From positions 124,001-188,000 of the forward strand of contig NC_091146.1 of assembly GCF_041381155.1 (NCBI RefSeq): DNA of 64,000 nucleotides. The letters are read 5' to 3'. This DNA is from Argopecten irradians (taxonomy: Eukaryota > Mollusca > Bivalvia > Pectinida > Pectinidae). Below are positions 16,648 through 52,377 of this stretch, one piece after another. The notes below the pieces were generated by a model. It had not been told where the DNA came from and did no database searches. It saw nothing but the letters and a program-made list of their open reading frames with translations. The translations under genes were made by a program, and so were the position numbers. The first letter of the stretch is position 1. Each line of letters begins with the position of its first letter.

Positions 16648-16649
16648 AG

Positions 16650-18290
16650 ACCGTAACAACTACAGCACCAACCTCAACAACAGTCTCAGCAACAATACCT
16701 AGCACTGTTGGAAATGCTTGTTTGTTTTGTTTGTTTTTGTTTGTTTTATTAACGTCCTATTAACAGCTATGGTCATGTAAGGACGGCCTCCCATGTATGC
16801 GCTGTGTTGCGTGTATGTTGTGCGAGGTGCGTGTTTTCGGGAGACTGCGGTATATATTCATGTTGTGTCTTCTTGTATAGTGGAACTGTTGCCCTTTTTA
16901 TAGTGCTATATCACTGGAGCATGCCGCCAAAGACACCAAGCAACACACCCCACCCGGTCACATTATACTGACAACGGGCGAACCAGTCGTCCCACTCCCT
17001 GTATGCTGAGCGCTAAGCAGGAGCAGAAACTACCACTTTTATAGACTTTGGTGTGTCTCGGCCAGGGGACACAACTCAGAGCCTTCCTCACAGGGGCGAA
17101 CGCTCAACTCAAGGCCAAAAGTGAGGCGGTGCCAAGGGAGGCATTAGGAAGGATAAAGTCAGTTAGGAACAATAGAAAAGATAAGATCCTAAATTTAGTT
17201 GCCTGTTACGATCATGCAATAAGGGCAGCAGGTACAATTCTTACGCCCTACCTGCAGGGTCTGTTGTAAATGCATCCATAGGAGTTTCAACAAATGTTTC
17301 GGAAGCAAATTTTCCATCAACAGCCAACATTGCTGCTGAACTACTGAGACAAATAGAGGCAAAAGGCTATGTGACAATGCCCACAACTCCAAATGCTGGA
17401 CATATGAATGTAATCACTTCTCCTATGGACAGAGGCTCCAGTCTTGCAGAAAATGCTAGACTTCAACCTGCGGCAGCAACTGGAACTCCACCGATTCCGG
17501 CCACAAACATTGACTTTGTGCCTCACGTTACTACCACTAACATCGAATCTGTGCCACACGTTACTGCCACACACATCCAATCTGTGCCACACGTTACTGC
17601 CACACATTACTGAACTTATACGAATTTGGGACTTCCACATCCCAGGACCTGTTCCAGATCCTTCAGCAGGCTTGCAACAACCATTAATTAATAACTTTAG
17701 TGGTGAGAATGTGCATGTTGCTGTATTTCCCGACCTCTAGACATGCTTTTGGATGCAAAAATTAAAGGCAAAATATTGGCTAACGAGTTTATTGAATTTA
17801 GTGCTTTACTTCAAAAATCACCCGCCCATTATCAGTTTAAGATTCAGATTCAGGGCTCTGAATTAGCCATTGTCCCTCAACAAAAGTAATTTTCAATTAA
17901 ACATTTTTGTTTCAATTTATGTTCAGGCCCATCCTCAGGCTATTTCATCTTTGATCTTTTATGAAATACGCCGACATCATCCATACGCTGACATCATCCA
18001 AACGCTTAACAGAAGGTCGGGCATTGCTGCAGCTTTATATTATGATTCAAACTACAGACAATGGCATCAGATGTACCCTAATGCATGCTGGGGAATATGC
18101 ATTCTGAATTCTATTTGGAGGTCACAGCCATTGGTCTCCGCAATAGCTTTAAAACACAACAAAGCCAACAGCAGCCCTTTCTTGGCAAACCCAGCACAAT
18201 GCCCAAAGGTGTGTGCTGGCCATACAATAAGACAGGGCTTTGTCGTAAAGGCGGGCGATGCAAATTTACCCACGTCTGCTCCACTTGCGT
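16650..18290 (+). mobile_element. Fossil gag-like region of a DIRS/Ngaro-type retrotransposon
   Basis: The left part is Thr/Pro-rich. It is followed by a region with WDFHIPGPVPDPSAGL-like and LLDAKIKGKILANEFIEF-like words, then HPQAISSLIFYEIRRHHPYA, a YDSNYRQW word, and a CCCH-type finger (C-PYNKTGL-C-RKGGR-C-KFT-H) followed by CSTC. This order is typical of the gag-like ORF of tyrosine-recombinase retrotransposons. No reverse transcriptase, RNase H or recombinase follows. A retroposon (16718-17260) is inserted in it and a LINE tail follows it. It is broken, with about three breaks besides the insertion, and moderately old. An identical fossil lies in the second module. Confidence 0.65.
16718..17260 (-). 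mobile_element. Full-length retroposon inserted in the gag fossil
   Basis: The (GTTT)n tail lies at the left and the 5' end CCTGCAGGG at the right, so it points to the minus strand. Target duplications of 13 bp, CTGTTGGAAATGC (16705-16717) and CTGTTGTAAATGC (17261-17273), differ at one base, which implies some age since insertion. The same insertion with the same mismatch is present in the second module, so it predates the duplication. Confidence 0.85.
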
Positions 18291-18350
18291 TCTCTACCCA
18301 CCACTATTTGCCTCCCAGTCTTCCTCAGTTACTTGGAGGGTTTCTTTGTT

Positions 18351-18530
18351 GTTTGTTTGAGTTTTACGGCCCATCGACAAATAAGGTCATTTAGGGCCAA
18401 ACTACAAGTCATGCATTAATATCAGGATAAAAGATCAGGGTAAGAAAAGGCAGGTAATGACTAAAACACAGATTGTAAACGTTTATTTGATAAAAAAAGG
18501 TTTGCATGGAATAAAATAGTTTTGGCTTAA
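18351..18530 (-). mobile_element. LINE 3' tail fragment
   Basis: GTTTGTTTGAGTTTTACGGC, CCATCGACAAATAAGGTCAT and TTAGGGCCAAACTAC are the reverse complement of the 3' tail of the I-like LINE at 6040-6148. Only the untranslated tail is present. It immediately follows the gag fossil. Confidence 0.75.
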
Positions 18531-20329
18531 ACACATGTGAAAACTCATGCACACAGTTGATGAAACGATGAAATGTTGAGTTGATACGATGATATGATAT
18601 GATGAGAAAACGTTCATATTTTGTTTAAAATACCGATTTCTTTGAGATAATTAAAAATACGATTATGTCTCACGGCATGAAACAAAGTGTACATGTCGGA
18701 GACATCGTAGTACTTAGGCCATAGTTGTGTTTTTTTCTGTTTTGCGTCCGCGTGCGGGTAGGTGTTGTGCTGTTGTGAGGCAAAAACAAACACAAGTTAT
18801 TATTTTAAGATTTCGTTAAAAAGTCGACCGAAAATAAAAATTCCGGAAAAATGCCCATTTCCGGTTTCCAATTTAGTCAGTTGTGGCAAGCATCACACTA
18901 CTCTTGCTATCGCTAAAGCGCTGCAAGGACTAGGAGAAGACATCTGGCAATCGAGATGTGATGCAGGGTGTTTTCGATCTATGAAGGGATGGGGATGGCT
19001 GAAAAGTTGTCAAATTCGGTCGTATGTTTTTCGTTCATTCAGAATAATGAAACGATGATATATCCATATGCATTCCAAGTATGCAAACCAAACTTATTCG
19101 CAGGTTCATCTTTGGCCAGTGGCCAAGATACAATCTTTAATCTATTTACAAGATTTTAAGGAACAATAGCTGTTTCGGAAAAAAACTCTGATCAAATGTT
19201 TTCTTTTCTCGAAAAATGACTCGCCTGTTGAGGTAAACTTAGGAATAAATTTTTAGATGGGTTTGGTTTGTTTGGTGCGTACTTTGAGTTCTAACTTCCA
19301 GATTATAAAAAATGAAAGTTTTCAAAAATTAATGCCTTTGACATGATGTCGACGAGTGAAATTGTGATACTAGAATATCCCAATCCAAGTGAGTGTACCA
19401 GAGGCTAAGGTTATTTAAGGTTATATTATTAGAAATCTGCTGAAATACATTTGATATCAAACATATTGAATCATTTTATTGAGTCTTTTTTTTTAAAATA
19501 TAATATTAAAAATCCATGTCAATTCATTTGAGTGAACCAGAGACATCGCTGATTGAACACATGTACATGTATTTTTGCATTCTGATTCTTATAAATAGTA
19601 TAATAGACATATTTTTTTCCTTTGGTTGAATTAAATTTCCAAATATTAAATATCATGTTGTAGTTTTTTTTAACAAACTGTATGTCGATTATGCAATTGT
19701 GGTAGTACAGTTATGACAGATTGGGTTTATGAAAGTACATGTGTATGAATCGCAATGGTCAGTGCTGACTTGCAGAGAATACCAAAGCAGGATTAAGTCA
19801 AAGTTTAAAGAATTGTTTGTACTGTTGTGAGGGTGATGCATGTATCAAAACAGAAAACAAGTTTACAATACAATGCATAAATAGGCTATTATTATTTTTT
19901 TTAATAAAGGTTATTATATGGAGCAACAGCATTTAATTTTATAACAGACACCATGAAAAACATAATTTTCTCAGACTTCAATCTGATAATACCTTTAATA
20001 CTTTTGATGTTAAAATATGTCTGTTGCATTCAATTTTGTGATCCATACCAATGAATCAATGATAAGGAGATTATTTATGAAATATTGTCTATTCTATTCT
20101 ACCACTTGCAAGAACAAAACTGGTCAAAGTGTAAGCATCCCAGACAAAGCGTGGGCTCCGTGTTTTTTTGTTCGTGTTTGGTTTTTTTCCTTGCTGGCTG
20201 GTTGGTTTTTGAGAATCCAAAGGACGCAAAACAGAAAAAAAACACAACTATGGCCTTATCTCGTATGTGCTTAAAATCAATACAGTGCACTAAAATGTTC
20301 CACTGTCAGAGGAGAATCACATGCATGGC
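18531..20329. other. No assignable gene within module copy 1
   Basis: AT-rich. One stretch, 18890-19160, has a protein-like look in two overlapping plus frames (see findings) but no complete exon. The rest shows homopolymer T/A runs and no known repeat. Confidence 0.45.
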
Positions 20330-21232
20330 ATGTGGGAGGATCCTCCCCTCTCAATAGAGGGGAGGATATGGCCCATAGCTCCCTGGGGGGTGGGGCCCCG
20401 CCCCTCTGCCCCGAGGGGGTTGACCAGGACCAATGTAGTTATGATATTAAAATGTTATCTCAGGCTAATAATTCTAAACAAGTTTGACTCATTTCCTATG
20501 AAAATTGAGCAAAAAATGCTCATAAATGTGTTTTCCCTATATAAACTATAGTAAACTTGACCCCCTCCCCAGGGGGAAACGTGAGACCCCAGGGTCATAT
20601 AATTCACAATTTTTGAAAAGGACCTCAAGACCTTTCCATCTATGAAGAGTTTGTGATTCTACCATTTCCAGAATTTCAGAAGAAGATTTTTGAAGTTATA
20701 GCCTATTTGACCCCTTTTGACCCCGCCCCTAAGGCCCCTGGGGGTCAATCATGGAAAATTGGTTAATAGGATTCAATGGCCATCTCATACTGATAATTCT
20801 GACAATATTTGACTCATTTCCTATTACAATGATCAAATAATACTCAAAAATGTGTTTTCCTATATAAACTATAGTAAACTTAACCCCCTTCCCAAGGGGG
20901 AAACGTGAGACCCCAGGGTCATATAATTCACAATTTTTGTAAAGGACCTTAGGACCTTTCTATCTATGAAGAGTATTTAATTCCATCACATCCGTGAGTG
21001 GAGCAGAAGATTTTTGAAATTTTAGTAAATTTTACCCCTTTTGGCCCCTCCCATAGCTCCCTGGGGGTGGGGACCATATAATTCACAATTTTGATTGGCC
21101 TAATGCCTTAGAAGGTTTGTGCAAATTTTCATTAAAATTGCTTCAGCAGTTTTGGAGAAGTTGAAAATGTAAATTGTTTACGGACATACGACGGACAAAA
21201 GGCGATTAGAATAGGTCACTTGAGACGAAATG
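20330..21232 (-). mobile_element. Hairpin-ended element, ACCTGAGAC subfamily, incomplete
   Basis: On the minus strand it starts with a damaged fold-back (GTCTCAAGTGACCTATTCTA at 21211-21226), the GCCTTTTGTCC block and ATTTTCAACTTCTCCAAAAC. Two or three ~370-bp units follow, with GACCCC(A)GGGGTC words and ACTCATTTCCTAT. At the far end lies a separate perfect hairpin ATCCTCCCCTCT-CAAT-AGAGGGGAGGAT (20340-20367). The family's GGCCC 3' hairpin is absent, so the 3' end is lost. A complete relative is at 56868-57956. Confidence 0.65.
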
Positions 21233-21475
21233 TTGGGACGAAATATCGTTTACAATGGATGTGACAAGGTGTAGAAAATGTATCTTATATGAAGACCACG
21301 TGGTATAAAGGTCATCTGGACGTGACGGGATATTGTCAGATCTTTTACATAACGGAATGGTTATAAGGATCTGTATTGTATATACTGGGACGAAATGGCG
21401 ATTTCAAATGATCTAGCAAGATAATCAAAATGCATTTGATCTGTACACGTGGTATAAATGTCATCCGAACGAAGG
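21233..21475 (-). mobile_element. Fragments of the CAATCTGATT MITE family
   Basis: GGTGTAGAAAATGTATCTTA, GACCACGTGGTATAAAGGTC and GGTTATAAGGATCTGTATT match the right half of the element at 43267-43581. A second partial unit (GACGAAATGGCGATTTCAAA) follows. No intact pair of ends. Confidence 0.6.
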
Positions 21476-21564
21476 GTTAGAAACTGGTCTCGAGAAGAAG
21501 TACTAACCTATTTCTCGACTTGAAAACACAACCAACAATCAAATGATCTCGGGATCTGTATTTT

Positions 21565-21720
21565 AACTGAGCACATCTCTCGTACTCGGACATCAAATGT
21601 AACGGGGAAAGTATGGCTGTATTCGAACCCACAACCCCCGAACTGACATTCAGCTCTTTTAACACAACTATTAGACCAAATCGAGAACCGTCTCGCATAA
21701 ACAAAATGGTGAAAAGCTCG
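21565..21720 (-). mobile_element. tRNA-derived SINE fragment
   Basis: On the minus strand a box-A-like TGGTCTAATAGTTG (21665-21678) and a perfect box B, GGGTTCGAATAC (21619-21630), are spaced as in a tRNA-like pol III promoter. The part between them could fold as a degraded tRNA. Downstream it passes into GATCTGTATTTTAACTGAGC. It is not a functional tRNA gene: no acceptor pairing was found. The same unit is in the second module. Confidence 0.5.
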
Positions 21721-22227
21721 TCATCGGTATGGAACCGAATTGGTTAGATAATTTGGGACGAAATTGTATTGGAATATGTTGCTACTGCAGTAGGCTGGCG
21801 TTGTGTAACGTACCGGCGGGGGTTGTTACCAAGGTATTACTTGGGTCCCTGTTATGAATCACCAACTATACTACAGCAGCCAATATATACAGATAAGCTA
21901 GGTTACAACCATCAACACTAGTCAATTTTCTATGTACAATACACGTTATCAATAAGCACAATACGACATACAGAGTACCTCTCTGAACTAAAGTACACCA
22001 TGTGAAGGGAGACAACCCCTGTATGCGTATACAACCACTATAGGTACACAGGGCGCAACACACCTAGTGCTGATCACGGCCCTCTATAACACACATACGG
22101 GACAAACGAGACTGATGCTACGACCCTAACAGTACCGGACAGTACTAACACTACACACTGACCCAGAATGTGGTCACTACAACTCGGAGTCTGCTGACTG
22201 CGAGCATTGTCGCTAACACCAGTGTTG

Positions 22228-22330
22228 ACGGTCCTACTCACGACCTACCTATGTCGTGAGTCGTGAGTGTTCACGATTATCTACAATAGTCGTGAGATGA
22301 TGTTGCAAGTAACTCACGACCTATGTGCCT
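22228..22330. repeat. Cluster of GTCGTGAG/CTCACGAC inverted words
   Basis: Five or six copies of the 8-mer occur in both orientations within ~100 bp. They include a hairpin ACTCACGAC (22236-22244) / GTCGTGAGT (22253-22261) with an 8-nt loop, then a directly repeated GTGAGTCGTGAGTG. The second module carries the same cluster. It may be a protein-binding cluster or part of an unrecognised element. Confidence 0.6.
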
Positions 22331-22630
22331 CAACGCACTTACTGAGGTTACAATATAATAGCTATGAACCACAATGCTCAGAACACGATAGCTACTTTTA
22401 TTAATGGAAGTCCCTGGCCACGACACCGATCAAGGCAATGCTTATTCAGCAACTTCTGTCTTTCAGTGCCAATAACCAATAGATTATATGCAAGAGATCT
22501 TACCAAACGGACGACCAGTTCCCAGAATGAAATCACTCTCGTGTGCCTGCTGTATTTATACTCTGCGAGGGAAACAACGCCATCTATTGTTAATCAGGAA
22601 AACGAGTCACTAAAACGCTTTACTGATACC

Positions 22631-22682
22631 GTCCTTACATGACCATAGCTGTTAATAGGACGTTAATTAATCAACAAACAAA
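22631..22682 (+). mobile_element. 5'-truncated retroposon copy (52 bp)
   Basis: Only the last ~50 bp of the ~530-bp retroposon (GTCCTTACATGACCATAGCT through the GGACGTTAAT tail) is present, flanked by the 10-bp duplication TACTGATACC (22621-22630, 22683-22692). Truncation plus target duplication is the signature of LINE-type target-primed integration. Confidence 0.85.
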
Positions 22683-22946
22683 TACTGATACCATTCTTAA
22701 TGAAGCACCTGATCGGCATCGATCACCAAAACACTCGTACGGGGAAACACACACATTACACATGCGATGCAAAGGTGAGGCCTACTTTCGCCACAGTTGT
22801 ATCGTTTGAGCTATTAATACTATGACTTTATGATGTCAACTAATCACCAGATATTCAATGTGGTGAACTATTGAATGACATTGAGAAGCTGGATGGCCAT
22901 TCTCGGAACAATCTGGCTTTCTCGATTCAGTCCAATCCCCCTAACT

Positions 22947-23475
22947 TGTTTGTTTGTTTGATTTATTAACGTCCTATTAACAGCTATGGTCATGTAAGGA
23001 CGGCCTCCCATGTATGCGGTGTGTTGCGTGTATGTTGTGTAGGTGAGTGTACTGGGAGACTGCGGTATGTTCGTGTCGTGTCTTCTTGTATAGTGGAACT
23101 GTTGCCCTTTTTATAGTGCTATATCACTGAAGCATGCCGCCGAAGACACCAAGCAACACACCCCACCCGGTCACATTATACTGACAACAGGCGAACCAGT
23201 CGTCCCACTCCCTGTATGCTGAACGCTAAACAGGAGCAGAAACTACCACTTTTATAGACTTTGGTGTGTCTCGGCCAGGGGATAGAGCCCAGAGCCTTCC
23301 TCACAGGGACGAACGCTCAACTCAAGGCTAAAAGTGAGGCGGTGCCAAGGGAGGCATTAGAAAAGATAAAGTCAGTTAGGCAGAAGAGAAAAGATAAGAT
23401 CCTAAATTTAGTCGCCTATACGATCATGCAATAGGGGCAGCAGGTACATTTCTAACGCCCTACCTGCAGGGCCAG
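22947..23475 (-). mobile_element. Full-length retroposon
   Basis: Complete copy in minus orientation with an 11-bp target duplication TCCCCCTAACT (22936-22946, 23476-23486). It is closer to the copy at 35600 than to the one at 16718. The duplicated counterpart is at 51034-51565. Confidence 0.85.
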
Positions 23476-23835
23476 TCCCCCTAACTCCTAACGCCTTCCT
23501 TTATAGACATACATGGCCCTTCTGTTGTGTATATAGGTTGTTATGTGGGTCAAGGAAGTAATATCAACAGTTATTTTCCATATAGACATATGTATGTAGG
23601 ATACGAATAAGTAGTAAATATTGTAGGACTGTCATGTGCTATTAACGGGATTCAACCCAAGACTTTAGACATGTATCACACAACACCATTGAAGGTTCTA
23701 TCGCCATGCGATCTCTTTATTACCAAGTGCGCATGTTCAAGACATTTACATAGAACATGAATGATTCACGCCTCTCGCTTAGTCTCACACATTTAAGGAT
23801 GCACACTCCCAATATTACAAACACTACATCCCTCC

Positions 23836-24766
23836 TTTTTAGGTCTTCTGACCCGAAGGTTCAGGATCACATATAGTCGTCATGTTTCGTGTGCCATGCG
23901 TTAACTTTTCACAGTGCGATTTAGCTGAAACTTACATGAAATGATCCTGACATGGTCCCGACAAAGAGTTGTTATTTTTGGGGTTGATCCAAAATCCAAG
24001 ATGGCCGCCATTTTGAAAACACATTTTGAACTTCTTCTCAAGTTCTACCAGTGCGATTTGGCTGAAACATGCATGAAATAATCCTGACATGGTCCCGACA
24101 AAGTGTTGTTATTTTTTGGGTCGATCCGAAATCCAAGATGGCCGCCACAGCCGCCTCTTGAAAACACATTTTGAACTTCTTAAGCTCTACCGGTGCGATT
24201 TGGCTGAAACTTGCATGAAATGATCCTGACATGATCCCGACAAAGTGTTGTTATTATGGGTCGATACAAAATCCAAGATGGCCGCCTTGAAAACTCATTT
24301 TGAACTTCTTCTCAAGTTCTACTTGTGCGATTTGGCTAAAACTTGCATGAAGTAATCCTGACATGGTCCCGACAAAGTGTTGTTATTTTTAGGGTCGATC
24401 CGAAATCCAAGATGGCCGCCACAGCCGCCATCTTGAAAACACATTTTGAACTTCTTCTTAAGTTCTACCGGTGCGATTTGGCTGAAACTTGCATGAAATG
24501 ATCCTGACATGGTCCTGACAAAGTGTTGTTATTTTTTGGGTCGATCCGAATTCCAAGATGGCCGCCATAGCCGCCATCTTGAAAACACATTTTGAACTTC
24601 TTCTCAAGTTCTACCATTGGGAATTGGCTGAAACTTGCATGAAATGATCTCGACATAGTCCCGACAAAGTATTGTTACATCTTTGGTTGATCCCAAATCG
24701 AAGATGGCTACCATGACACTATATCTAATTAATATTCTATATGTTAAGGCCCTTGGGCCTCTTGTT
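23836..24766 (+). mobile_element. Hairpin-ended element with ~140-bp units, complete
   Basis: A 5' T-run and degraded fold-back AGGTCTTCTGACCCGAAGGT are followed by a GTCATGTTTCGTG block. Six or so units of ~140 bp (GCGATTTGGCTGAAACTTGC, GATCCTGACATGGTCCCGAC, CCAAGATGGCCGCC) follow, and then the 3' hairpin AGGCCC-TT-GGGCCT (24747-24760) plus CTTGTT. The right boundary of the 7.64-kb duplication falls inside its fourth unit. The serial short minus-strand frames here are readings of the repeat. Confidence 0.75.
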
Positions 24767-24896: not shown

Positions 24897-25184
24897 TCCG
24901 AACTTAACATTTCTCTATGAATACTAACATTCCAAATAGCACTTATAAAAATGAAAACAATTCTATCAACGCATTTACTTATTATATAACCAGTATTAAC
25001 CACACAAAATATGAATTATGCATTTAAACAAAGTCTTGACTAGAGTCTCTGACTAGATGTCCATAGTATATAATGTCTTTCATTCGGAACTTCGTTTGTG
25101 AACTGGTTATACCTAATCATAAATATATAATAATAACTTTACATTTTTCATGTAACTTAACTGAAAATAAACACATTAATTCAA

Positions 25185-26880
25185 CCTATAATGAAATTGT
25201 CAAATTTCTTTGGCAAAGATCGCTCTCTCGTTGGCCTCTCATACACTTGTATAGGTTTTGACCCTACCTCAGACTCACTTGGCATACATGGGATTGGGTC
25301 AACATCAGAATGTGGAGTCATATAGGATTTCTCATATATGTCAGCAGATTCAGCCATCGGATTTGTATTGTCGCGCGACTCGAACTTCTTGACACGAGTG
25401 CTATTTCGTTTATACTGAACGCCATCCAGCCACGATTCGACAACAACACTATTTCCCCTTTTCTCAACAATTTCCATAGGGCTAGGATTGAAAGTTGTAG
25501 AAAAATTATTCTCACGGTCCTGTTTAAGGAGAACTTTGCCGCCCTGCTTTAACTCGTTTTCCCTAGCACCCTGTTTTGCATCAGCGTATGCTCTACCTTT
25601 CTCTTTTCACTCCGAATCTCTATCTCGGACCTCAACATTAAGTCATCTGTACTATACTGATGAAGACCTGGAAGTTTTGTACGTAACTTCCGTCCATACA
25701 GAAGTTCCGCAGGACTTACACCTGTCGTGCTGTGTGGGTTAGCACGATACATCAAAAGGCAAGTATTTAGGTCGTCTTTCCATGATTGACCTTGGGCATA
25801 AGCAATACGAATACGCTTCATTATTGACAGATTTTCACGTTCGACTTTCACAATAAGCCTCAAAATGCTCACTGATAAATTGTGGACCGTTGTCTGTCTG
25901 CAAAGACTCTGGTAATCCAGGTGTCAGAAAAATTTTGTCTAACATCTGTGTAATCTTTTCCAACGTTGTAGACTTTGTGACCTCAACCTCAAACCAGCGA
26001 CTGTAGTAATCTACGACTACAAATATATTTTCACCGGTTGGCAACAGACCTAACAGATCGGCAGCGAGATGTTGCCACGGTAACGATGGTAACTCGCGTC
26101 TTGTCATTGGTTTGGGTCTACTCGGCTGACTGACTAACTGAAAACCGTAACACTCCCTACAAAATTTCTCAGCTTCCCTATCTATTCCAGGCCACTTTAC
26201 TGCTTCTAAGCCTCGCCTTCATACCAACTATGCCGGGATGACCTTCATGTGCTAACTCAAGGACGGGATTCATCAATGACCTTGGAATCACTAACCTAGT
26301 TCCTCGTAAGACTACTTGTCCTATGGCGCTAAGCTCATTTCTGACTGGTAAATAAGCTTTATTTTCAATTTTGTGCCATTGACCATTTAACAGGCACTCT
26401 CGAATCTCAATCAGTTCGTGATCGGTTTCAAACTCACGTTCAACCTCTCGGGTTGTCATAGCAACTAGTGTCGCTTCCTTAGCAACAAACCTTACATACT
26501 CTTCTGATTCATCTACTAACTTTAGACCAACGATTGGTTCCTCAGACTTCTTCAAAAGTCGCGACAGTGAATCAGTGATATTCCTCGGTCCCGGAATATA
26601 TAGAACACGGTAACGGTATGGTTGTAATCGGAGAACCCACCTTTCTATCCTCGCACACGGTTTGGATCTAGTAGAGTAAATAAATACACTCCCAACGGTT
26701 TATGGTCAGTCAACAACTCAAACTCCATACCATACATGAAACCTCTCACAGGCCCATACAATGGCCAACGCCTCTTATAACCAGGACAGCTAAATATCTT
26801 TGATTTTTTTTGGACTCACCTATAATGAATTAAACCCTCCTCCAGCAGGTATCATTTAAAAGTCTAGTCAACTTAACACT
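25185..26880 (-). mobile_element. Fossil Ty3-like retrotransposon, RNase H tail and integrase
   Basis: Minus-strand readings give, in order, traces of the RNase H end, an H2C2-type linker region (HEGHPGIVGMKARLR), an integrase core region (WQHLAADLLG, VVVDYYSRWFEVE, LPESLQTDNGPQF) and a GVSPAELLYGRKLRTKLPGL block with a C-terminal tail ending near 25185. About 1.7 kb of pol remains; no LTR was found on either side. It is broken, with several breaks, and of middle age, since motifs are still easy to recognise. Confidence 0.85.
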
Positions 26881-27188
26881 TTGATTATACATAGTTGTAC
26901 ATGTGTGATATCGATAAGCAATCATACACGAAAAAATTTCCCCAATTATTTTTTATCATATAACAATATTCTGATAAATTTTAATAAAAAGCTGTCTTGA
27001 AAGAATTTTATGATTGTTTTAATACCAACATTGATAACAATTAAATACCAGTGGTCATTTGTATTGTCCTAATTATTTATTAGTTTAAACAGTGCACATG
27101 AGTGATAATCAAGAATATTAGTCAAAACCAATCATTGAACATTAATTAACTGAACCAACGTGCTACGAGGCCATTGGCCTCTTGTTTT
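26881..27188 (+). mobile_element. AT-rich stretch ending in a hairpin 3' end
   Basis: The last 22 bp are GAGGCC-ATT-GGCCTC plus TTGTTTT, the 3' terminus shared by the hairpin-ended families, preceded by AT-rich DNA without a recognisable array. The 5' end is not identified. Confidence applies to the terminus only. Confidence 0.45.
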
Positions 27189-27449
27189 ATTTGTTCTTCT
27201 TGTGTCTTGACAAAGGGGCAGATTGCCTCGAAAATTTGACAATCTTTTGTCTACACTGTTAGAATTACTTCTCTGCCCTATATATGTTGTTATAGTGATA
27301 GTCAAAGGGAGATAATTTAGTTTGAATCTATTACGAGTTATTCCAGTTCAATGTGTTCTCTTGTAACATGTGTAGAGTTCAGACAAACATTTAGAACAGA
27401 GCAGACATGTTTTATGTACCTGCTCCAATATTTAGGCGAACTCAGGAGA

Positions 27450-35231: not shown

Positions 35232-35256
35232 GTATTACCCTAGTGGAAAAAAACAC

Positions 35257-40801: not shown

Positions 40802-40845
40802 CGTGGTTGTGTTTACTGATGAAACTGCCTCGATTTCAAATTGGT

Positions 40846-41019: not shown

Positions 41020-41749
41020 AGAATTTCACCTCTTATATATGTTCACTCTGTGAAATACATGCTTCTCTCAGATTTAAGCATCTAGTTGAAATCACTTGTA
41101 TAATCCATTATTGAAATACCTATACTTTGAATTTTATTTCTAAATTTGTCATTCGAATGTAATTATGACAGGTCATTTATACTTTCACTTTAATAAGTAA
41201 CATCATGACACCTTGTACAATGTTGCTATAGGTAATGTTTTGCATAGGGCCATATACTGTACCTTACATTTTGTTTTTTTCACATTTGTAGTTAAGGTGG
41301 CTTATGATATAATTATCTCCATTGGATAGTGTAACCATTTCATTCTATTACTTGTTTTTCTTCACTATTGTTCGTTATGTTCATTGATCATATCTACTTT
41401 GTACATCTTGTAAGTCCTCATTTTGAGTTTTCCACTCTCATGAACCCACGCTTAAAATTTTGATAAAATTTTAATATTTTTGGGGGCGGATGTTCTGTAT
41501 TAGTGTATACGGGTGTCATGAGAGGGGAGATAACTCGTATGAGCATATAAAAAAAGTTTGTTATTACCTCCCTTTATGTGAACTCTCCAGAAGGAGATAG
41601 TTTTTGTAATGGAATGGAGAATAAATGTGACGCATAACAGATGGAGGAGTTTCTCGTCATTTTCCCGTCCGAATAAACCCTCACAGCAGCCAAGCGAGTC
41701 GCCGACACTGGGCACCTGATTACCCCCTTGCTGCAATACAATGATTAGT
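41020..41749. other. No gene seen
   Basis: AT-rich. A minus-strand open frame from 41500 is continuous with the LINE ORF1 fragment side but shows no recognised domain of its own. Confidence 0.4.
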
Positions 41750-41755
41750 GTGGTT

Positions 41756-41960
41756 TTACACACACAGTGAGGCCGGCAAAACTGGTGGTTCCAAGGAGGT
41801 GTCTGCTTGTTGCTTGCGAAAAACCTCTATTAGGAGATCACCTGATCCCAAAGACTTAACAGATTTGACATCGCCGGCAATGCCTTTGATGCCCTTTCGC
41901 AATATTAAGGGTGATAAACCTACAGTGGTCTTGCTGCTCGGTGTAGAGGACATGACCAGA
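41756..41960 (-). mobile_element. LINE ORF1 fragment (I/Nimb-like)
   Basis: Minus-strand reading LSPLILRKGIKGIAGDVKSV then KSLGSGDLLIEVFRKQQAD resembles the RRM-like nucleic-acid-binding segment of LINE ORF1 proteins (KGI.G.AG..KSVK.LRSGDLL.EV). Truncated on both sides. It may be part of the same family as the RNase H fragments at 5.6 and 34 kb. Confidence 0.6.
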
Positions 41961-42267
41961 AACTGTGGAAATGTGTTTGTTGTACCGCTTTTTGTTTGTT
42001 GATTTGTGGTTGATTCCTTTTGGTGAGATTTTGGATGTAGTTCTTTTGTTTGTTTTGGGAAGCCATCTTTAAGAGTTTATACTATTCGCTAGCTGTGCCC
42101 CCACCCACCTCGGAGCCCAACAGGGGGACACTCATGATGACATGGATATCCAGTGTCAAAGTGCCAGGGTTACACTTATATCAAGTTTGGCTCTAAAAAA
42201 CACAGATGTGTATACATATATACATTAATGAAAATACATTTCTTCTTCAATTATTTTTTTCCTACAG

Positions 42268-42612
42268 ATGAAACAATGCCCCAGGTCACAAGGGATCTCC
42301 CCACTCCTAACACGGACTCAACAACCAATATCCTAACATCCACCAAGGCCAGTGACTCCAATGGACCTACCACCAAGGCCCTTGACCTGGTCATTTCACA
42401 CCAGGTCACAATGGATCTCACCACCCCTAAAATGGACTCAACCACCAATATCCTTACCACTACCAAGGCCAGTGACTCCAATGGACCCACCACTAAGACC
42501 CTTGACCTGGTCACTTCACAGCACTATCCAGAATCCACATTTGATGGTGTAACTTTTGATATGCACATTAATCATAACCGATATAATCACAGCAATTGTC
42601 ACATCGTTTGAT
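42268..42612 (+). CDS. Thr-rich exon with two 40-residue repeats
   Basis: A strong acceptor (TTATTTTTTTCCTACAG) precedes DETMPQVTRDLPTPNTDST, continuing as two exact-phase 120-bp repeats starting at 42282 and 42402. Each encodes QVT-DL-TP--DSTTNIL followed by T-TKASDSNGPTTK-LDLV. The frame ends at TGA 42609-42611 after FDMHINHNRYNHSNCHIV. Thr/Ser/Asp-rich repeats with no Lys/Arg clusters suggest an O-glycosylated extracellular or mucin-like segment. That is composition-based inference; no signal peptide or further exon was found. The repeat-to-repeat difference is mainly at silent or conservative sites, which favours real coding. Confidence 0.45.
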
Positions 42613-42846
42613 ATGACCCTTAATCAACCAAATAGCAATCCATTGTGTCTTTTAGTTCTAATTCCCTATACATAGCATTTTGATAAAATCAAAGTACTGA
42701 AAGTACTGGGACTTTAGCCTAAAAGAACCGTTACAAATCGAGAATTCTGATTTGATTGATAACATAAATGATAAATCTCAATGTACAACAGCATGGCCAT
42801 CAATTGTTGTCAAGTTGCAATGGTAAAGAAATTTTATATATATAGA
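42588..42846 (+). repeat. 259-bp direct duplication, left copy
   Basis: TCACAGCAATTGTCACATCG through AAAGAAATTTTATATATA recurs at 42951-43208 with about five differences, separated by ~100 bp that include a SINE-like GGGGCGAACCAATCGTCCCA phrase. The left copy overlaps the end of the Thr-rich exon. Confidence 0.9.
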
Positions 42847-42950
42847 GTTGGGACCAAGGGGCGAACCAATCGTCCCACTTGTATTGATATAAGCAGGACA
42901 GACATTTAATCAGATAACCGACTATAGGTTTATGTGAGGTCACAGCATAT

Positions 42951-43208
42951 TCACAGCAATTGTCACATCGTTTGATATGACCCTTAGTCAACCAAATAGC
43001 AATCCATTGTGTCTTTTAGTTCTAATTCCCTATACATAGCATTTTGATAAAATCAAAGTACTGAAAGTAACTGGGACTTTAGCCTAAAAAAACCGTTACA
43101 AATCAAGAATTCTGATTTGATTGATAACATAAATGATAAATCTCAATGTACAACAGCATGGCCATCAATTGTTGTCAAGTTGCAATGGTAAAGAAATTTT
43201 ATATATAG
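42951..43208 (+). repeat. 259-bp direct duplication, right copy
   Basis: Counterpart of 42588-42846, offset by 363 bp. Differences include AGTCAACC for AATCAACC and an added A in GAAAGTAACTGGG. Confidence 0.9.
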
Positions 43209-43266
43209 TTTTTTAGAGTTAATTTTCTATTTCCTTCTACTCAAAACAAAGAACATGCGTTATGCG

Positions 43267-43581
43267 CAATCTGATTGAAATACAGATCCTTATTATCACT
43301 ACGTTAGATAAGAGGATCTGAGAAAATCCCATTAGGGGTCATGTCCAGGTGACCTTTGGAAATGGCCAATCAAATTGCTACTTGCAAAATTTTGACAGTG
43401 AATTTCAGGGATGAAATAATTTGAAAAAACTGTCAGAATTATTTTCATTCAAGGTGTAGAAAATGTATCTTATATGAAGACCACGTGGTATAAAGGTCAT
43501 CTGGACGTAACCTCCTACGGGATATTGTCAGATCCTTTATATAACGGAATGGTTATAAGGATAAGTATTTTAATCAGATTG
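43267..43581 (+). mobile_element. 315-bp MITE, complete reference copy
   Basis: Starts CAATCTGATTGAAATACAGA and ends TATTTTAATCAGATTG. Inverted ends include GATCCTTAT / ATAAGGAT and GGATCTGA / TCAGATCC further in. GCG occurs on both sides (43264-43266, 43582-43584), a possible 3-bp target duplication. No ORF. Fragments at 2799, 5022, 8149, 21233, 31158, 31919 and 36098 belong here. Confidence 0.75.
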
Positions 43582-43584
43582 GCG

Positions 43585-43981
43585 TTAAGCGATACAATAA
43601 TCCAAAAACATTGCAATTCCTTAGATAAATGAATTTGATATTGGTGAACATCATATCATACACATCATGTAAATTCCCAGTTGGACAACTATAAATTCCA
43701 GGTAAAAGTGTTGTATTATAAATGCAAGCACTCTATCATAAGATGAAAATTTACTTCATTATTGATAAACAAATAACAAATCACAAAGTAGTGTCGACCA
43801 TGAGTCAATGATTTATAAATATTTCCTTCTCTCTTTCTTTTGAGAAAATGGCAAAAAAATGTAATTTGTCACTCCAGATTTTGTTATGTGTACCTTGTAT
43901 TTATCATATCCTTTAAATCCCTTTATGGCAATCTTCAATTTACTCTGACAACATTAATTGGATAGTATCCTATATATAACT
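43585..43981. other. No gene seen
   Basis: AT-rich DNA without a repeat or exon I recognise. Confidence 0.5.
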
Positions 43982-43992
43982 TCTTCGTGCAT

Positions 43993-44043
43993 CCGTCCTT
44001 AAATGATCATAGCTGTTAATAGGACGTTAATAAATCAAACAAA
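43993..44043 (+). mobile_element. 51-bp retroposon tail insertion
   Basis: CCGTCCTTAAATGATCATAG to the GGACGTTAATAAATCAAACA tail, flanked by the 11-bp duplication TCTTCGTGCAT (43982-43992, 44044-44054). Confidence 0.85.
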
Positions 44044-44054
44044 TCTTCGTGCAT

Positions 44055-44738
44055 ATGCATATTATTTCTTTCATTCCTGCATATTTAATCGATATTGATT
44101 GAAAGGCTTTTTTGTATCATTAGCAATGTCCATGAAGCTAGAGCTTATCATGAAATTTGCCTCCCTCTAGTTGGTATTTATATTGACTATGAATGCCAAC
44201 TGAAAGCCAATGCTTATATTAATATTTACAACCTGAACTCACTCAAGGTTATCTGTATTTTACACATTATCATAAGCCACCTATATATATATATTCAATT
44301 TTTTTTATATTCATATATGATTTTCATATGTATTTGAGGAAAAGGCAAAAAAGATGATTTCAAGGCCATTACAATAATCATAGAAATGATCATGCCGCAC
44401 AAGTATATATGGATTTCATGATTTTAGTGACACCTCCAAAGTTGCATCTTTGTTAAGATAGCGAGATGCAAACAACATATTTCATTTTGAACATTAGTTT
44501 TCATAAATGTTAGAAGAAAGGAATTTGTAGACCATAATTTGACTTCATGGTCTGAATGTATGTACTTGTTTTACTTATAACCATAGATGTAAATGTTATA
44601 TTTTTTACTGCCACAAATGCTAATATAATTCAAAATGATTTTTAGTTTTAATTTATGTTGATTATATGACATTACCATGGTGTAAGATACACCAAAGATA
44701 CACCATTCTGTTTTTACTATTATCATTATAGCATTTTG
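44055..44738. other. No gene seen; left flank of module copy 2
   Basis: AT-rich. A plus-strand frame from 44095 is dominated by Ile/Tyr from AT-rich codons. The flank shares nothing with the left flank of copy 1 up to the final AG. Confidence 0.5.
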
Positions 44739-44740
44739 AG

Positions 44741-46375
44741 ACCGTAACAACTACAGCACCAACCTCAACAACAGTCTCAGCAACAATACCTAGCACTGTT
44801 GGAAATGCTTGTTTGTTTGTTTGTTTGTTTGTTTTATTAACGTCCTATTAACAGCTATGGTCATGTAAGGACGGCCTCCCATGTATGCGCTGTGTTGCGT
44901 GTATGTTGTGCGAGGTGCGTGTTTCGGGAGACTGCGGTATATTCATGTTGTGTCTTCTTGTATAGTGGAACTTTTGCCCTTTTTATAGTGCTATATCACT
45001 GGAGCATGCCGCCAAAGACACCAAGCAACACACCCCACCCGGTCACATTATACTGACAACGGGCGAACCAGTCGTCCCACTCCCTGTATGCTGAGCGCTA
45101 AGCAGGAGCAGAAACTACCACTTTTATAGACTTTGGTGTGTCTCGGCCAGGGGACACAACTCAGAGCCTTCCTCACAGGGGCGAACGCTCAACTCAAGGC
45201 CAAAAGTGAGGCGGTGCCAAGGGAGGCATTAGGAAGGATAAAGTCAGTTAGGAACAATAGAAAAGATAAGATCCTAAATTTAGTTGCCTGTTACGATCAT
45301 GCAATAAGGGCAGCAGGTACAATTCTTACGCCCTACCTGCAGGGTCTGTTGTAAATGCATCCATAGGAGTTTCAACAAATGTTTCGGAAGCAAATTTTCC
45401 ATCAACAGCCAACATTGCTGCTGAACTACTGAGACAAATAGAGGCAAAAGGCTATGTGACAATGCCCACAACTCCAAATGCTGGACATATGAATGTAATC
45501 ACTTCTCCTATGGACAGAGGCTCCAGTCTTGCAGAAAATGCTAGACTTCAACCTGCGGCAGCAACTGGAACTCCACCGATTCCGGCCACAAACATTGACT
45601 TTGTGCCTCACGTTACTACCACTAACATCGAATCTGTGCCACACGTTACTGCCACACACATCCAATCTGTGCCACACGTTACTGCCACACATTACTGAAC
45701 TTATACGAATTTGGGACTTCCACATCCCAGGACCTGTTCCAGATCCTTCAGCAGGCTTGCAACAACCATTAATTAATAACTTTAGTGGTGAGAATGTGCA
45801 TGTTGCTGTATTTCCCGACCTCTAGACATGCTTTTGGATGCAAAAATTAAAGGCAAAATATTGGCTAACGAGTTTATTGAATTTAGTGCTTTACTTCAAA
45901 AATCACCCGCCCATTATCAGTTTAAGATTCAGATTCAGGGCTCTGAATTAGCCATTGTCCCTCAACAAAAGTAATTTTCAATTAAACATTTTTGTTTCAA
46001 TTTATGTTCAGGCCCATCCTCAGGCTATTTCATCTTTGATCTTTTATGAAATACGCCGACATCATCCATACGCTGACATCATCCAAACGCTTAACAGAAG
46101 GTCGGGCATTGCTGCAGCTTTATATTATGATTCAAACTACAGACAATGGCATCAGATGTACCCTAATGCATGCTGGGGAATATGCATTCTGAATTCTATT
46201 TGGAGGTCACAGCCATTGGTCTCCGCAATAGCTTTAAAACACAACAAAGCCAACAGCAGCCCTTTCTTGGCAAACACCCAGCACAATGCCCAAAGGTGTG
46301 TGCTGGCCATACAATAAGACAGGGCTTTGTCGTAAAGGCGGGCGATGCAAATTTACCCACGTCTGCTCCACTTGC
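44741..46375 (+). mobile_element. Fossil DIRS/Ngaro-type gag-like region, second copy
   Basis: Duplicate of the fossil at 16650-18290, with the same inserted retroposon, the same CCCH-type finger and the same following LINE tail. It differs by a small length change near 46275. Broken, with the same number of breaks or one more. It arose by duplication of the module and not by its own transposition. Confidence 0.65.
44809..45345 (-). mobile_element. Full-length retroposon in module copy 2
   Basis: Counterpart of 16718-17260 with the same 13-bp target duplication and mismatch (44796-44808, 45346-45358). The tail has a cleaner (GTTT)n run than in copy 1. Confidence 0.85.
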
Positions 46376-46436
46376 GTTCTCTACCCACCACTATTTGCCT
46401 CCCAGTCTTCCTCAGTTACTTGGAGGGTTTCTTTGT

Positions 46437-46617
46437 TGTTTGTTTGAGTTTTACGGCCCATCGACAAATAAGGTCATTTAGGGCCAAACTACAAGTCATG
46501 CATTAATATCAGGATAAAAGATCAGGGTAAGAAAAGGCAGGTAATGACTAAAACACAGATTGTAAACGTTTATTTGATAAAAAAAGGTTTGCATGGAATA
46601 AAATAGTTTTGGCTTAA
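46437..46617 (-). mobile_element. LINE 3' tail fragment, module copy 2
   Basis: Counterpart of 18351-18530: reverse complement of the I-like LINE tail, from GTTTGTTTGAGTTTTACGGC. Confidence 0.75.
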
Positions 46618-48416
46618 ACACATGTGAAAACTCATGCACACAGTTGATGAAACGATGAAATGTTGAGTTGATACGATGATATGATATGATGAGAAAACGT
46701 TCATATTTTGTTTAAAATACCGATTTCTTTGAGATAATTAAAAATACGATTATGTCTCACGGCATGAAACAAAGTGTACATGTCGGAGACATCGTAGTAC
46801 TTAGGCCATAGTTGTGTTTTTTTCTGTTTTGCGTCCGCGTGCGGGTAGGTGTTGTGCTGTTGTGAGGCAAAAACAAACACAAGTTATTATTTTAAGATTT
46901 CGTTAAAAAGTCGACCGAAAATAAAAATTCCGGAAAAATGCCCATTTCCGGTTTCCAATTTAGTCAGTTGTGGCAAGCATCACACTACTCTTGCTATCGC
47001 TAAAGCGCTGCAAGGACTAGGAGAAGACATCTGGCAATCGAGATGTGATGCAGGGTGTTTTCGATCTATGAAGGGATGGGGATGGCTGAAAAGTTGTCAA
47101 ATTCGGTCGTATGTTTTTCGTTCATTCAGAATAATGAAACGATGATATATCCATATGCATTCCAAGTATGCAAACCAAACTTATTCGCAGGTTCATCTTT
47201 GGCCAGTGGCCAAGATACAATCTTTAATCTATTTACAAGATTTTAAGGAACAATAGCTGTTTCGGAAAAAAAACTCTGATCAAATGTTTTCTTTTCTCGA
47301 AAAATGACTCGCCTGTTGAGGTAAACTTAGGAATAAATTTTTAGATGGGTTTGGTTTGTTTGGTGCGTACTTTGAGTTCTAACTTCCAGATTATAAAAAA
47401 TGAAAGTTTTCAAAAATTAATGCCTTTGACATGATGTCGACGAGTGAAATTGTGATACTAGAATATCCCAATCCAAGTGAGTGTACCAGAGGCTAAGGTT
47501 ATTTAAGGTTATATTATTAGAAATCTGCTGAAATACATTTGATATCAAACATATTGAATCATTTTATTGAGTCTTTTTTTTTTAAAATATAATATTAAAA
47601 ATCCATGTCAATTCATTTGAGTGAACCAGAGACATCGCTGATTGAACACATGTACATGTATTTTTGCATTCTGATTCTTATAAATAGTATAATAGACATA
47701 TTTTTTTCCTTTGGTTGAATTAAATTTCCAAATATTAAATATCATGTTGTAGTTTTTTTTAACAAAAACTGTATGTCGATTATGCAATTGTGGTAGTACA
47801 GTTATGACAGATTGGGTTTATGAAAGTACATGTGTATGAATCGCAATGGTCAGTGCTGACTTGCAGAGAATACCAAAGCAGGATTAAGTCAAAGTTTAAA
47901 GAATTGTTTGTACTGTTGTGAGGGTGATGCATGTATCAAAACAGAAAACAAGTTTACAATACAATGCATAAATAGGCTATTATTATTTTTTTTAATAAAG
48001 GTTATTATATGGAGCAACAGCATTTAATTTTATAACAGACACCATGAAAAACATAATTTTCTCAGACTTCAATCTGATAATACCTTTAATACTTTTGATG
48101 TTAAAATATGTCTGTTGCATTCAATTTTGTGATCCATACCAATGAATCAATGATAAGGAGATTATTTATGAAATATTGTCTATTCTACCACTTGCAAGAA
48201 CAAAACTGGTCAAAGTGTAAGCATCCCAGACAAAGCGTGGGCTCCGTGTTTTTTTGTTCGTGTTTGGTTTTTTTCCTTGCTGGCTGGTTGGTTTTTGAGA
48301 ATCCAAAGGACGCAAAACAGAAAAAAAACACAACTATGGCCTTATCTCGTATGTGCTTAAAATCAATACAGTGCACTAAAATGTTCCACTGTCAGAGGAG
48401 AATCACATGCATGGCA
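46618..48416. other. No assignable gene within module copy 2
   Basis: Counterpart of 18531-20329, including the protein-like stretch at about 46977-47247. Confidence 0.45.
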
Positions 48417-49319
48417 TGTGGGAGGATCCTCCCCTCTCAATAGAGGGGAGGATATGGCCCATAGCTCCCTGGGGGGTGGGGCCCCGCCCCTCTGCCCCGA
48501 GGGGGTTGACCAGGACCAATGTAGTTATGATATTAAAATGTTATCTCAGGCTAATAATTCTAAACAAGTTTGACTCATTTCCTATGAAAATTGAGCAAAA
48601 ATGCTCATAAATGTGTTTTCCCTATATAAACTATAGTAAACTTGACCCCCTCCCCAGGGGGAAACGTGAGACCCCAGGGTCATATAATTCACAATTTTTG
48701 AAAAGGACCTCAAGACCTTTCCATCTATGAAGAGTTTGTGATTCTACCATTTCCAGAATTTCAGAAGAAGATTTTTGAAGTTATAGCCTATTTGACCCCT
48801 TTTGACCCCGCCCCTAAGGCCCCTGGGGGTCAATCATGGAAAATTGGTTAATAGGATTCAATGGCCATCTCATACTGATAATTCTGACAATATTTGACTC
48901 ATTTCCTATTACAATGATCAAATAATACTCAAAAATGTGTTTTCCTATATAAACTATAGTAAACTTAACCCCCTTCCCAAAGGGGAAACGTGAGACCCCA
49001 GGGTCATATAATTCACAATTTTTGTAAAGGACCTTAGGACCTTTCTATCTATGAAGAGTATTTAATTCCATCACATCCGTGAGTGGAGCAGAAGATTTTT
49101 GAAATTTTAGTAAATTTTACCCCTTTTGGCCCCTCCCATAGCTCCCTGGGGGTGGGGACCATATAATTCACAATTTTGATTGGCCTAATGCCTTAGAAGG
49201 TTTGTGCAAATTTTCATTAAAATTGCTTCAGCAGTTTTGGAGAAGTTGAAAATGTAAATTGTTTACGGACATACGACGGACAAAAGGCGATTAGAATAGG
49301 TCACTTGAGACGAAATGTT
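48417..49319 (-). mobile_element. Hairpin-ended element, ACCTGAGAC subfamily, module copy 2
   Basis: Counterpart of 20330-21232, including the 12-bp-arm hairpin with CAAT loop and the damaged 5' fold-back. Confidence 0.65.
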
Positions 49320-49560
49320 GGGACGAAATATCGTTTACAATGGATGTGACAAGGTGTAGAAAATGTATCTTATATGAAGACCACGTGGTATAAAGGTCAT
49401 CTGGACGTGACGGGATATTGTCAGATCTTTTACATAACGGAATGGTTATAAGGATCTGTATTGTATATACTGGGACGAAATGGCGATTTCAAATGATCTA
49501 GCAAGATAATCAAAATGCATTTGATCTGTACACGTGGTATAAATGTCATCCGAACGAAGG
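49320..49560 (-). mobile_element. MITE fragments, module copy 2
   Basis: Counterpart of 21233-21475, from ACGAAATATCGTTTACAATG to ATGTCATCCGAACGAAGG. Confidence 0.6.
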
Positions 49561-49649
49561 GTTAGAAACTGGTCTCGAGAAGAAGTACTAACCTATTTCT
49601 CGACTTGAAAACACAACCAACAATCAAATGATCTCGGGATCTGTATTTT

Positions 49650-49805
49650 AACTGAGCACATCTCTCGTACTCGGACATCAAATGTAACGGGGAAAGTATG
49701 GCTGTATTCGAACCCACAACCCCCGAACTGACATTCAGCTCTTTTAACACAACTATTAGACCAAATCGAGAACCGTCTCGCATAAACAAAATGGTGAAAA
49801 GCTCG
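49650..49805 (-). mobile_element. tRNA-derived SINE fragment, module copy 2
   Basis: Counterpart of 21565-21720 with the same box A/box B pair. Confidence 0.5.
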
Positions 49806-50312
49806 TCATCGGTATGGAACCGAATTGGTTAGATAATTTGGGACGAAATTGTATTGGAATATGTTGCTACTGCAGTAGGCTGGCGTTGTGTAACGTACCG
49901 GCGGGGGTTGTTACCAAGGTATTACTTGGGTCCCTGTTATGAATCACCAACTATACTACAGCAGCCAATATATACAGATAAGCTAGGTTACAACCATCAA
50001 CACTAGTCAATTTTCTATGTACAATACACGTTATCAATAAGCACAATACGACATACAGAGTACCTCTCTGAACTAAAGTACACCATGTGAAGGGAGACAA
50101 CCCTGTATGCGTTATACAACCACTATAGGTACACAGGGCGCAAACACACCTAGTGCTGATCACGGCCCTCTATAACACACATACGGGACAAACGAGACTG
50201 ATGCTACGACCCTAACAGTACCGGACAGTACTAACACTACACACTGACCCAGAATGTGGTCACTACAACTCGGAGTCTGCTGACTGCGAGCATTGTCGCT
50301 AACACCAGTGTT

Positions 50313-50415
50313 GACGGTCCTACTCACGACCTACCTATGTCGTGAGTCGTGAGTGTTCACGATTATCTACAATAGTCGTGAGATGATGTTGCGAGTAACT
50401 CACGACCTATGTGCC
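50313..50415. repeat. GTCGTGAG/CTCACGAC cluster, module copy 2
   Basis: Counterpart of 22228-22330. One substitution (TTGCGAGTAACTC for TTGCAAGTAACTC) lies beside, not inside, the repeated words. Confidence 0.6.
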
Positions 50416-50717
50416 TCAACGCACTTACTGAGGTTACAATATAATAGCTATGAACCACAATGCTCAGAACACGATAGCTACTTTTATTAATGGAAGTCCC
50501 TGGCCACGACACCGATCAAGGCAATGCTTATTCAGCAACTTCTGTCTTTCAGTGCCAATAACCAATAGATTATATGCAAGAGATCTTACCAAACGGACGA
50601 CCAGTTCCCAGAATGAAATCACTCTCGTGTGCCTGCTGTATTTATACTCTGCGAGGGAAAACAACGCCATCTATTGTTAATCAGGAAAACGAGTCACTAA
50701 AACGCTTTACTGATACC

Positions 50718-50769
50718 GTCCTTACATGACCATAGCTGTTAATAGGACGTTAATTAATCAACAAACAAA
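50718..50769 (+). mobile_element. 52-bp retroposon tail, module copy 2
   Basis: Counterpart of 22631-22682 with the same TACTGATACC duplication. Confidence 0.85.
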
Positions 50770-51033
50770 TACTGATACCATTCTTAATGAAGCACCTGAT
50801 CGGCATCGATCACCAAAACACTCGTACGGGGAAACACACACATTACACATGCGATGCAAAGGTGAGGCCTACTTTCGCCACAGTTGTATCGTTTGAGCTA
50901 TTAATACTATGACTTTATGATGTCAACTAATCACCAGATATTCAATGTGGTGAACTATTGAATGACATTGAGAAGCTGGATGGCCATTCTCGGAACAATC
51001 TGGCTTTCTCGATTCAGTCCAATCCCCCTAACT

Positions 51034-51565
51034 TGTTTGTTTGTTTGATTTATTAACGTCCTATTAACAGCTATGGTCATGTAAGGACGGCCTCCCATGT
51101 ATGCGGTGTGTTGCGTGTATGTTGTGTAGGTGAGTGTACTGGGAGACTGCGGTATGTTCGTGTCGTGTCTTCTTGTATAGTGGAACTGTTGCCCTTTTTA
51201 TAGTGCTATATCACTGAAGCATGCCCGCCGAAGACACCAAGCAAACACACCCCCCACCCGGTCACATTATACTGACAACAGGCGAACCAGTCGTCCCACT
51301 CCCTGTATGCTGAACGCTAAACAGGAGCAGAAAACTACCACTTTTATAGACTTTGGTGTGTCTCGGCCAGGGGATAGAGCCCAGAGCCTTCCTCACAGGG
51401 CGAACGCTCAACTCAAGGCTAAAAGTGAGGCGGTGCCAAGGGAGGCATTAGAAAAGATAAAGTCAGTTAGGCAGAAGAGAAAAGATAAGATCCTAAATTT
51501 AGTCGCCTATACGATCATGCAATAGGGGCAGCAGGTACATTTCTAACGCCCTACCTGCAGGGCCA
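51034..51565 (-). mobile_element. Full-length retroposon, module copy 2
   Basis: Counterpart of 22947-23475. It shows several extra single bases in C and A runs relative to copy 1 (GCATGCCCGCC, CACACCCCCCACCC, CAGAAAACTACC) and one loss (CAGGGCGAAC), a pattern of homopolymer noise more than of substitution. Confidence 0.85.
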
Positions 51566-51925
51566 GTCCCCCCCTAACTCCTAACGCCTTCCTTTAAAGA
51601 CATACATGGCCCTTCTGTTGTGTATATAGGTTGTTATGTGGGTCAAGGAAGTAATATCAACAGTTATTTTCCATATAGACATATGTATGTAGGATACGAA
51701 TAAGTAGTAAATATTGTAGGACTGTCATGTGCTATTAACGGGATTCAACCCAAGACTTTAGACATGTATCACACAACACCATTGAAGGTTCTATCGCCAT
51801 GCGATCTCTTTATTACCAAGTGCGCATGTTCAAGACATTTACATAGAACATGAATGATTCACGCCTCTCGCTTAGTCTCACACATTTAAGGATGCACACT
51901 CCCAATATTACAAACACTACATCCC

Positions 51926-52377
51926 TCCTTTTTAGGTCTTCTGACCCGAAGGTTCAGGATCACATATAGTCGTCATGTTTCGTGTGCCATGCGTTAACTT
52001 TTCACAGTGCGATTTAGCTGAAACTTACATGAAATGATCCTGACATGGTCCCGACAAAGAGTTGTTATTTTTGGGGTTGATCCAAAATCCAAGATGGCCG
52101 CCATTTTGAAAACACATTTTGAACTTCTTCTCAAGTTCTACCAGTGCGATTTGGCTGAAACATGCATGAAATAATCCTGACATGGTCCCGACAAAGTGTT
52201 GTTATTTTTTGGGTCGATCCGAAATCCAAGATGGCCGCCACAGCCGCCTCTTGAAAACACATTTTGAACTTCTTAAGCTCTACCGGTGCGATTTGGCTGA
52301 AACTTGCATGAAATGATCCTGACATGATCCCGACAAAGTGTTGTTATTATGGGTCGATACAAAATCCAAGATGGCCG
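51926..52377 (+). mobile_element. 5' part of the ~140-bp-unit hairpin-ended element, cut off
   Basis: Counterpart of the start of 23836-24766. Three units and part of the fourth are present, then the duplicated module ends. The family's 3' hairpin is missing here. Confidence 0.75.

Follow-up and report, generated by a model that had tools for sequence, protein, structure and literature searches.

The end of a chromosome-scale contig of Argopecten irradians raises the question of whether two nearly identical stretches of sequence, lying about 28 kb apart, are two copies of one segment in the genome or one segment that was assembled twice. The window analysed here is a stretch of 64,000 nucleotides (NCBI RefSeq assembly GCF_041381155.1, contig NC_091146.1, C13:124001-188000) in which the repeated segment, referred to as the module, is present as copies M1 and M2. 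The 846-Mb assembly comprises 1,508 contigs, 16 of which are chromosome-scale (34.5-75.5 Mb), the next in size being C17 (1.07 Mb) and C18 (0.41 Mb). The module pair is sited near one end of the chromosome-scale contig C13; the window contains no N, and neither TTAGGG nor CCCTAA was found in the first 1,000 bases of C13, so that this end is not shown to be telomeric. With a little better than even confidence, the pair is read here as a real, very recent direct segmental duplication, in which some 7.64 kb of mosaic sequence, composed of old repeats, was copied within about 28 kb.

Two copies of one module

The two copies were delimited by BLASTN comparison of the window with itself:

16648-24284, + strand: M1, module copy 1, 99.56% identical to 44739-52377, with 24 difference sites
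44739-52377, + strand: M2, module copy 2, from the same alignment; its left 3.6 kb also occurs on the unplaced contig C260

The alignment extends over 7,653 columns at 99.56% identity, with 4 mismatches and 20 gap openings that together account for 30 gap bases, a likeness far above chance. Both copies run in the same direction, and their starts are 28,091 bp apart. All edges are sharp, on the left at 16647/16648 (M1) and 44738/44739 (M2) and on the right at 24284/24285 (M1) and 52377/52378 (M2), the right edge falling in the middle of a unit of a tandem array with units of 137 and 146 bp. The first-pass annotation, made from the letters of the window, had described a 7.64-kb module present twice about 28 kb apart and nearly base-identical, with about twenty differences consisting chiefly of length changes in homopolymers and short runs, and with a right edge inside a tandem array of about 140 bp; the self-alignment bears out each of these points. 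It had also named many evenly spread substitutions in a full alignment as the mark of an old duplication, and an old duplication is refuted. The pair falls within the size and identity range of segmental duplications (at least 1 kb, at least 90% identity, not high-copy), as it spans 7,653 columns at 99.56% and has a core found at three places among the candidates scored.

The module is a mosaic of common repeats around a low-copy core, a piece of repeat-rich chromosome without ends of its own. Its recognisable parts are as follows:

16727-17259 in M1 and 44817-45344 in M2, + strand: left member of a dispersed 530-bp interspersed repeat family (self-BLASTN)
22946-23471 in M1 and 51033-51562 in M2, + strand: right member of the 530-bp interspersed repeat (self-BLASTN and family comparison)
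17700-18340, + strand: low-copy core, found in M1, in M2 and on C260
23912-24897, + strand: tandem-array element with 137/146-bp units, which in M1 reaches the usual end of its family and in M2 is cut at 52377

Members of the 530-bp family were found at a minimum of 36 other genomic sites; the two within the module match each other at 93% and are set 79 bp and 813 bp inward from its edges. At least four other repeated sequences contribute pieces (18339-18716, 18714-19700, 20394-21194 and 21801-22642 in M1 coordinates). A genome search with the core, in which the best 40 of 2,075 candidates were scored and which diverged copies may escape, recovered it at three places only, namely M1, M2 and C260, and 21100-22900 was full length solely in M1 and M2 among the matches listed. 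The two open reading frames (ORFs) of the module that were searched, of 142 amino acids (17185-17613) and 175 amino acids (17867-18394), gave no Pfam match at an E value of 0.01. The duplication has no evident function.

Three surroundings of the module

The copies differ in the sequences on either side of them. M1 lies between a satellite on its left (R) and its right neighbour (Y), whereas M2 lies between its left flank (X) and a different right neighbour (Q). A partial third copy is found on C260, an unplaced contig of 65,563 bp, together with the flank that precedes M2:

39136-44738, + strand: flank X of M2, common to C260:42087-47842

The match to C260 extends over window positions 39136-48324, comprising flank X and the leftmost 3.6 kb of the module, and the junction of X and module at 44739 therefore occurs in a second contig of the assembly. 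C260 then departs from the module into a high-copy mobile element. Over 40386-42842 plus 43217-44738 (3,979 bp), X and C260 differ by 2 substitutions and 2 indels; positions 42843-43216, where the structures differ, were excluded from this count, and near 43.2 kb C260 has gained a 530-bp repeat that runs the opposite way. The window there has a 261-bp direct repeat (98%; 42583-42842 and 42947-43207) where C260 has a single copy followed by the inverted-direction 530-bp insertion. On C260, the left module edge and the flank adjoining it are also duplicated in tandem (1.59 kb, 97%; C260:47158-48742 and 48777-50362), without counterpart in the window.

The module thus has three surroundings, R-M-Y and X-M-Q in the window and X-M-mobile element on C260. 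Provided that every contig is right, no single locus of a diploid could show all three. On the sequence as assembled, these distinct surroundings favour a real duplication, as does the partial, near-identical third copy with its different right neighbour.

The left junction of M1 was examined through the satellite that adjoins it:

16053-16647, + strand: piece of satellite R that stops where M1 begins; nine further chromosome-scale contigs carry arrays matching it at 97-99%

Satellite R has a period of about 1,007 bp, with a full unit within 11057-12435, and arrays 97-99% identical to it were found on C1, C2, C4, C5, C6, C7, C9, C10 and C12, as well as on four small contigs (best 15 of 1,566 candidates scored). 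On 8 of the 10 chromosome-scale contigs listed, C13 included, R lies less than 1 Mb from a contig end, the exceptions being C2 (2.05 Mb) and C9 (interior). The piece is clean up to 16647, at 99.2-99.7% identity to units of four array loci (592-597 bp compared, with 1-3 mismatches and 1-3 gap bases), and the junction at 16648 itself is therefore not in uncorrected sequence. Another contig, C36, shares 14798-16646 at 97%, with the same arrangement of satellite and 162-bp array (C36:94001-103900). On C36, R ends at the same point to within one base, and other sequence, not the module, follows; after about 190 bp, this sequence resembles the array at the right end of the module (69-81%). Such an arrangement fits an insertion by which the module came to lie between R and an array.

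At the right side, M1 continues to the usual end of the array family at about 24897. The array of M2 stops at 52377, and the next 169 bp had no other match among the best 40 of 4,186 candidates scored. The left junction of M1 and the right junction of M2 hence look like breaks. The order of the junctions is not explained by one simple tandem duplication; it fits an inserted copy whose right end met an existing array, or a formerly circular or tandem unit.

Differences between the copies

The 24 difference sites were judged against C260, against 12 further members of the 530-bp family and, elsewhere in the module, against relatives of the parts concerned (six for sites 22016-22572 and three for 20511). 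C260 was the sole comparison for M2-private sites 18189, 19179, 19486 and 19675 and for M1-private site 20088. Thirteen sites are private to M2 (18189, 19179, 19486, 19675, 20511, 22016, 22028, 22057, 22572, 23137, 23156, 23160 and 23240 in M1 coordinates) and five to M1 (16725, 16734, 16834, 20088 and 22307); one (23309) is off in both copies, two have both states elsewhere, and three (20896, 23477 and 23504) were left without judgement. Judged in this way, the differences would be mostly base-calling noise, and the true divergence of M1 and M2 may be near zero. Dating by substitutions was dropped because most of the differences are noise.

At sites 16851 and 16888, M1 has the state of the first C260 copy and M2 that of the second. 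These sites were considered as proof of two real copies, a case weakened by the occurrence of the M2 states in other members of the 530-bp family (11 of 12 at 16851 and 5 of 12 at 16888). They are not proof, because the M2 states would also result from gene conversion, or from polishing that favoured the repeat family.

A probable seam between the copies

Three stretches of the window have the quality of uncorrected long reads:

36250-39470, no strand: stretch between the copies, a probable assembly seam, of which 38870-39470 is better supported (comparison with C260 and with repeat relatives)
15465-16039, no strand: stretch left of M1; the alignment with C36 (707 columns) has 30 gap bases, of which 24 are bases added in the window
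13290-14090, no strand: stretch inside the 162-bp array, seen from inserted bases per 200-bp bin

In the 162-bp array, four bins (13.3-14.1 kb) have 16-27 inserted bases per 200 bp, as against 1-5 in the other 12. Between the copies, window positions 39136-39385 show 10 extra-base events relative to C260, in an alignment with 10 mismatches, and the following 250-bp bins show 3, 0, 0, 1 and 0. The added bases are single and mostly doubled, the last of them near 39.47 kb. Immediately to the left, the alignment of 38870-39124 to C260:37625-37920 contains 8 mismatches, and its gaps add up to 63 bases.

Further left, the window is longer than 39 of the 40 relatives of 36100-38900 (median ratio 1.044, or 4.4% extra window length), and the sole exception covers just 36100-36218. 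The median was 1.001 in control 54800-57000 (43 relatives; window longer in 23, shorter in 19, equal in 1) and 1.009 in control 21100-22900 (first 16 of 80 relatives; window longer in 16 of 16), that is, excesses of 0.1% and 0.9%. Given the latter control, a small one-sided length excess alone would prove little. Uncorrected-read quality is secure at 38.9-39.5 kb, judging from the alignments. From 36.2 to 38.9 kb it is probable, and less certain than in the part compared with C260, because 21 of the 40 rows cover one and the same 170 bp and most of the others are 71-82% alike.

Since sequence resembling uncorrected reads stands between them, M1 and M2 probably lay on separately assembled pieces before they were joined. 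Some programs close gaps with raw long reads and can introduce misassemblies in doing so, according to the TGS-GapCloser paper (PMC7476103). The stretch at 36.2-39.5 kb supplies the kind of seam between copies that characterises a false duplication, and we infer that it is gap filler from such a program.

Weighing the explanations

A real duplication is preferred, with a little better than even confidence, and in the simplest picture its mechanism would be replication-based or break-repair copying of the module. One end of the copy would have been joined bluntly to satellite R at 16647/16648, and the other would have met a pre-existing array of the same family at 24284/24285, via a short run common to both arrays. 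The few differences between M1 and M2 would then be mostly consensus errors of a noisy-long-read assembly, with perhaps a few real changes. Several observations weigh against this reading. None of the differences between M1 and M2 can securely be taken as real and fixed (13 M2-private sites, 5 M1-private, 1 off in both), and three private insertions fall within the first 190 bp of M1. The two copies agree to the last base of the M2 array, so that a join of array to array needs some coincidence. About 4.17 kb of C260 near 39.12 kb is missing from the window, and the uncorrected-read-like sequence that separates M1 from M2 leaves room for an assembly artefact.

Such an artefact is a serious contender, judged distinctly less probable than a real duplication. 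One module would have been assembled as two pieces (three with C260), two of which were placed on one chromosome and joined by a gap fill of uncorrected long reads. The end of the insertion-rich differences from C260 at about 39.47 kb, the excess length of 36100-38900, the two further stretches of uncorrected quality left of M1, the near absence of differences between flank X and its counterpart on C260, and the judgement of almost all M1/M2 differences as noise are all in keeping with it. However, it needs false joins at 16648 and 52377; neither site shows shared sequence that could have misled an assembler, and the first of them follows directly on clean satellite. The three surroundings are also incompatible with one diploid locus unless some contig is chimeric, and C260 differs by a mobile-element insertion, the 1.59-kb tandem duplication and a 530-bp insertion. 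A young duplication and an assembly duplicate were the correct pair of alternatives to pose at the outset, and the evidence does not choose between them; the first-pass suggestion that the duplicate might represent two haplotypes is weakened, as three surroundings are impossible at one diploid locus if the contigs are right.

It is very improbable that 16648-52377 represents 1.27 turns of a 28.09-kb M-Y-X unit, either a circle reintegrated over-length or a tandem remnant. A circular unit gives exactly the observed order, and the joins X-M (also on C260) and M-Y (array to family end) look original where R|M and M|Q have the appearance of breaks. The proposal nevertheless requires an extra Y-X join, possibly within the uncorrected stretch and unreadable there; C36 suggests that array sequence followed R before the module arrived; and no second whole unit was seen, 29900-31320 finding only itself as a full-length match (best 40 of 9,140 candidates scored). 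The specific version in which the unit was once an extrachromosomal circle that was reinserted into the chromosome end with more than one turn of its length, the copies being the overlap and C260 a sister product, is just as improbable. Insertion of the module twice as a transposable element, suggested by its sharp edges and by 530-bp direct repeats near both ends, is the least credible explanation and was rejected: the core is at three places among scored candidates, one of them partial, the 530-bp repeats are a dispersed family lying inside the edges, the right edge is in mid array unit, and by eye at the four edges no target-site duplication, that is, no short repeat common to the outer flanks of either copy, was found.

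Other features of the window

Retroelement remnants, presumably gypsy-like, occupy 25181-28033 (- strand), with a match to the rve integrase core at 25838-26218 (E 9.7e-11) and a weak, below-cutoff H2C2 match at 26181-26699. A weak, below-cutoff reverse-transcriptase-like match (RVT_3, E 0.002) lies at 34568-35026 (+ strand), and an ORF with a THAP domain at 592-966 (+ strand, E 2.1e-13).

Relation to known systems

If real, the pair represents a local duplication of very recent date next to a near-terminal satellite and would be useful for following the reshuffling of chromosome ends. If false, it marks a spot in the assembly where uncorrected long-read sequence joins pieces, and distances and repeat counts near this end of C13 are not trustworthy. 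The finding is ordinary in kind, and either way its most useful new fact and practical lesson is the seam between M1 and M2.

The pair resembles the local or interspersed segmental duplications found near chromosome ends in that it is longer than 1 kb, more than 99% identical, direct and composed of repeats unrelated to one another, and in that the module lies beside a satellite situated mostly near contig ends. It is unlike them in that its copies, known from the assembly alone, stand 28 kb apart with uncorrected-read-like sequence between them. With the false duplications of noisy-long-read assemblies it shares the lack of secure fixed differences, a redundant unplaced contig and the uncorrected-read-like sequence between copies, whereas it departs from them in its breaks, which lack shared sequence, and in its three surroundings, both of them unusual for such artefacts in our judgement.

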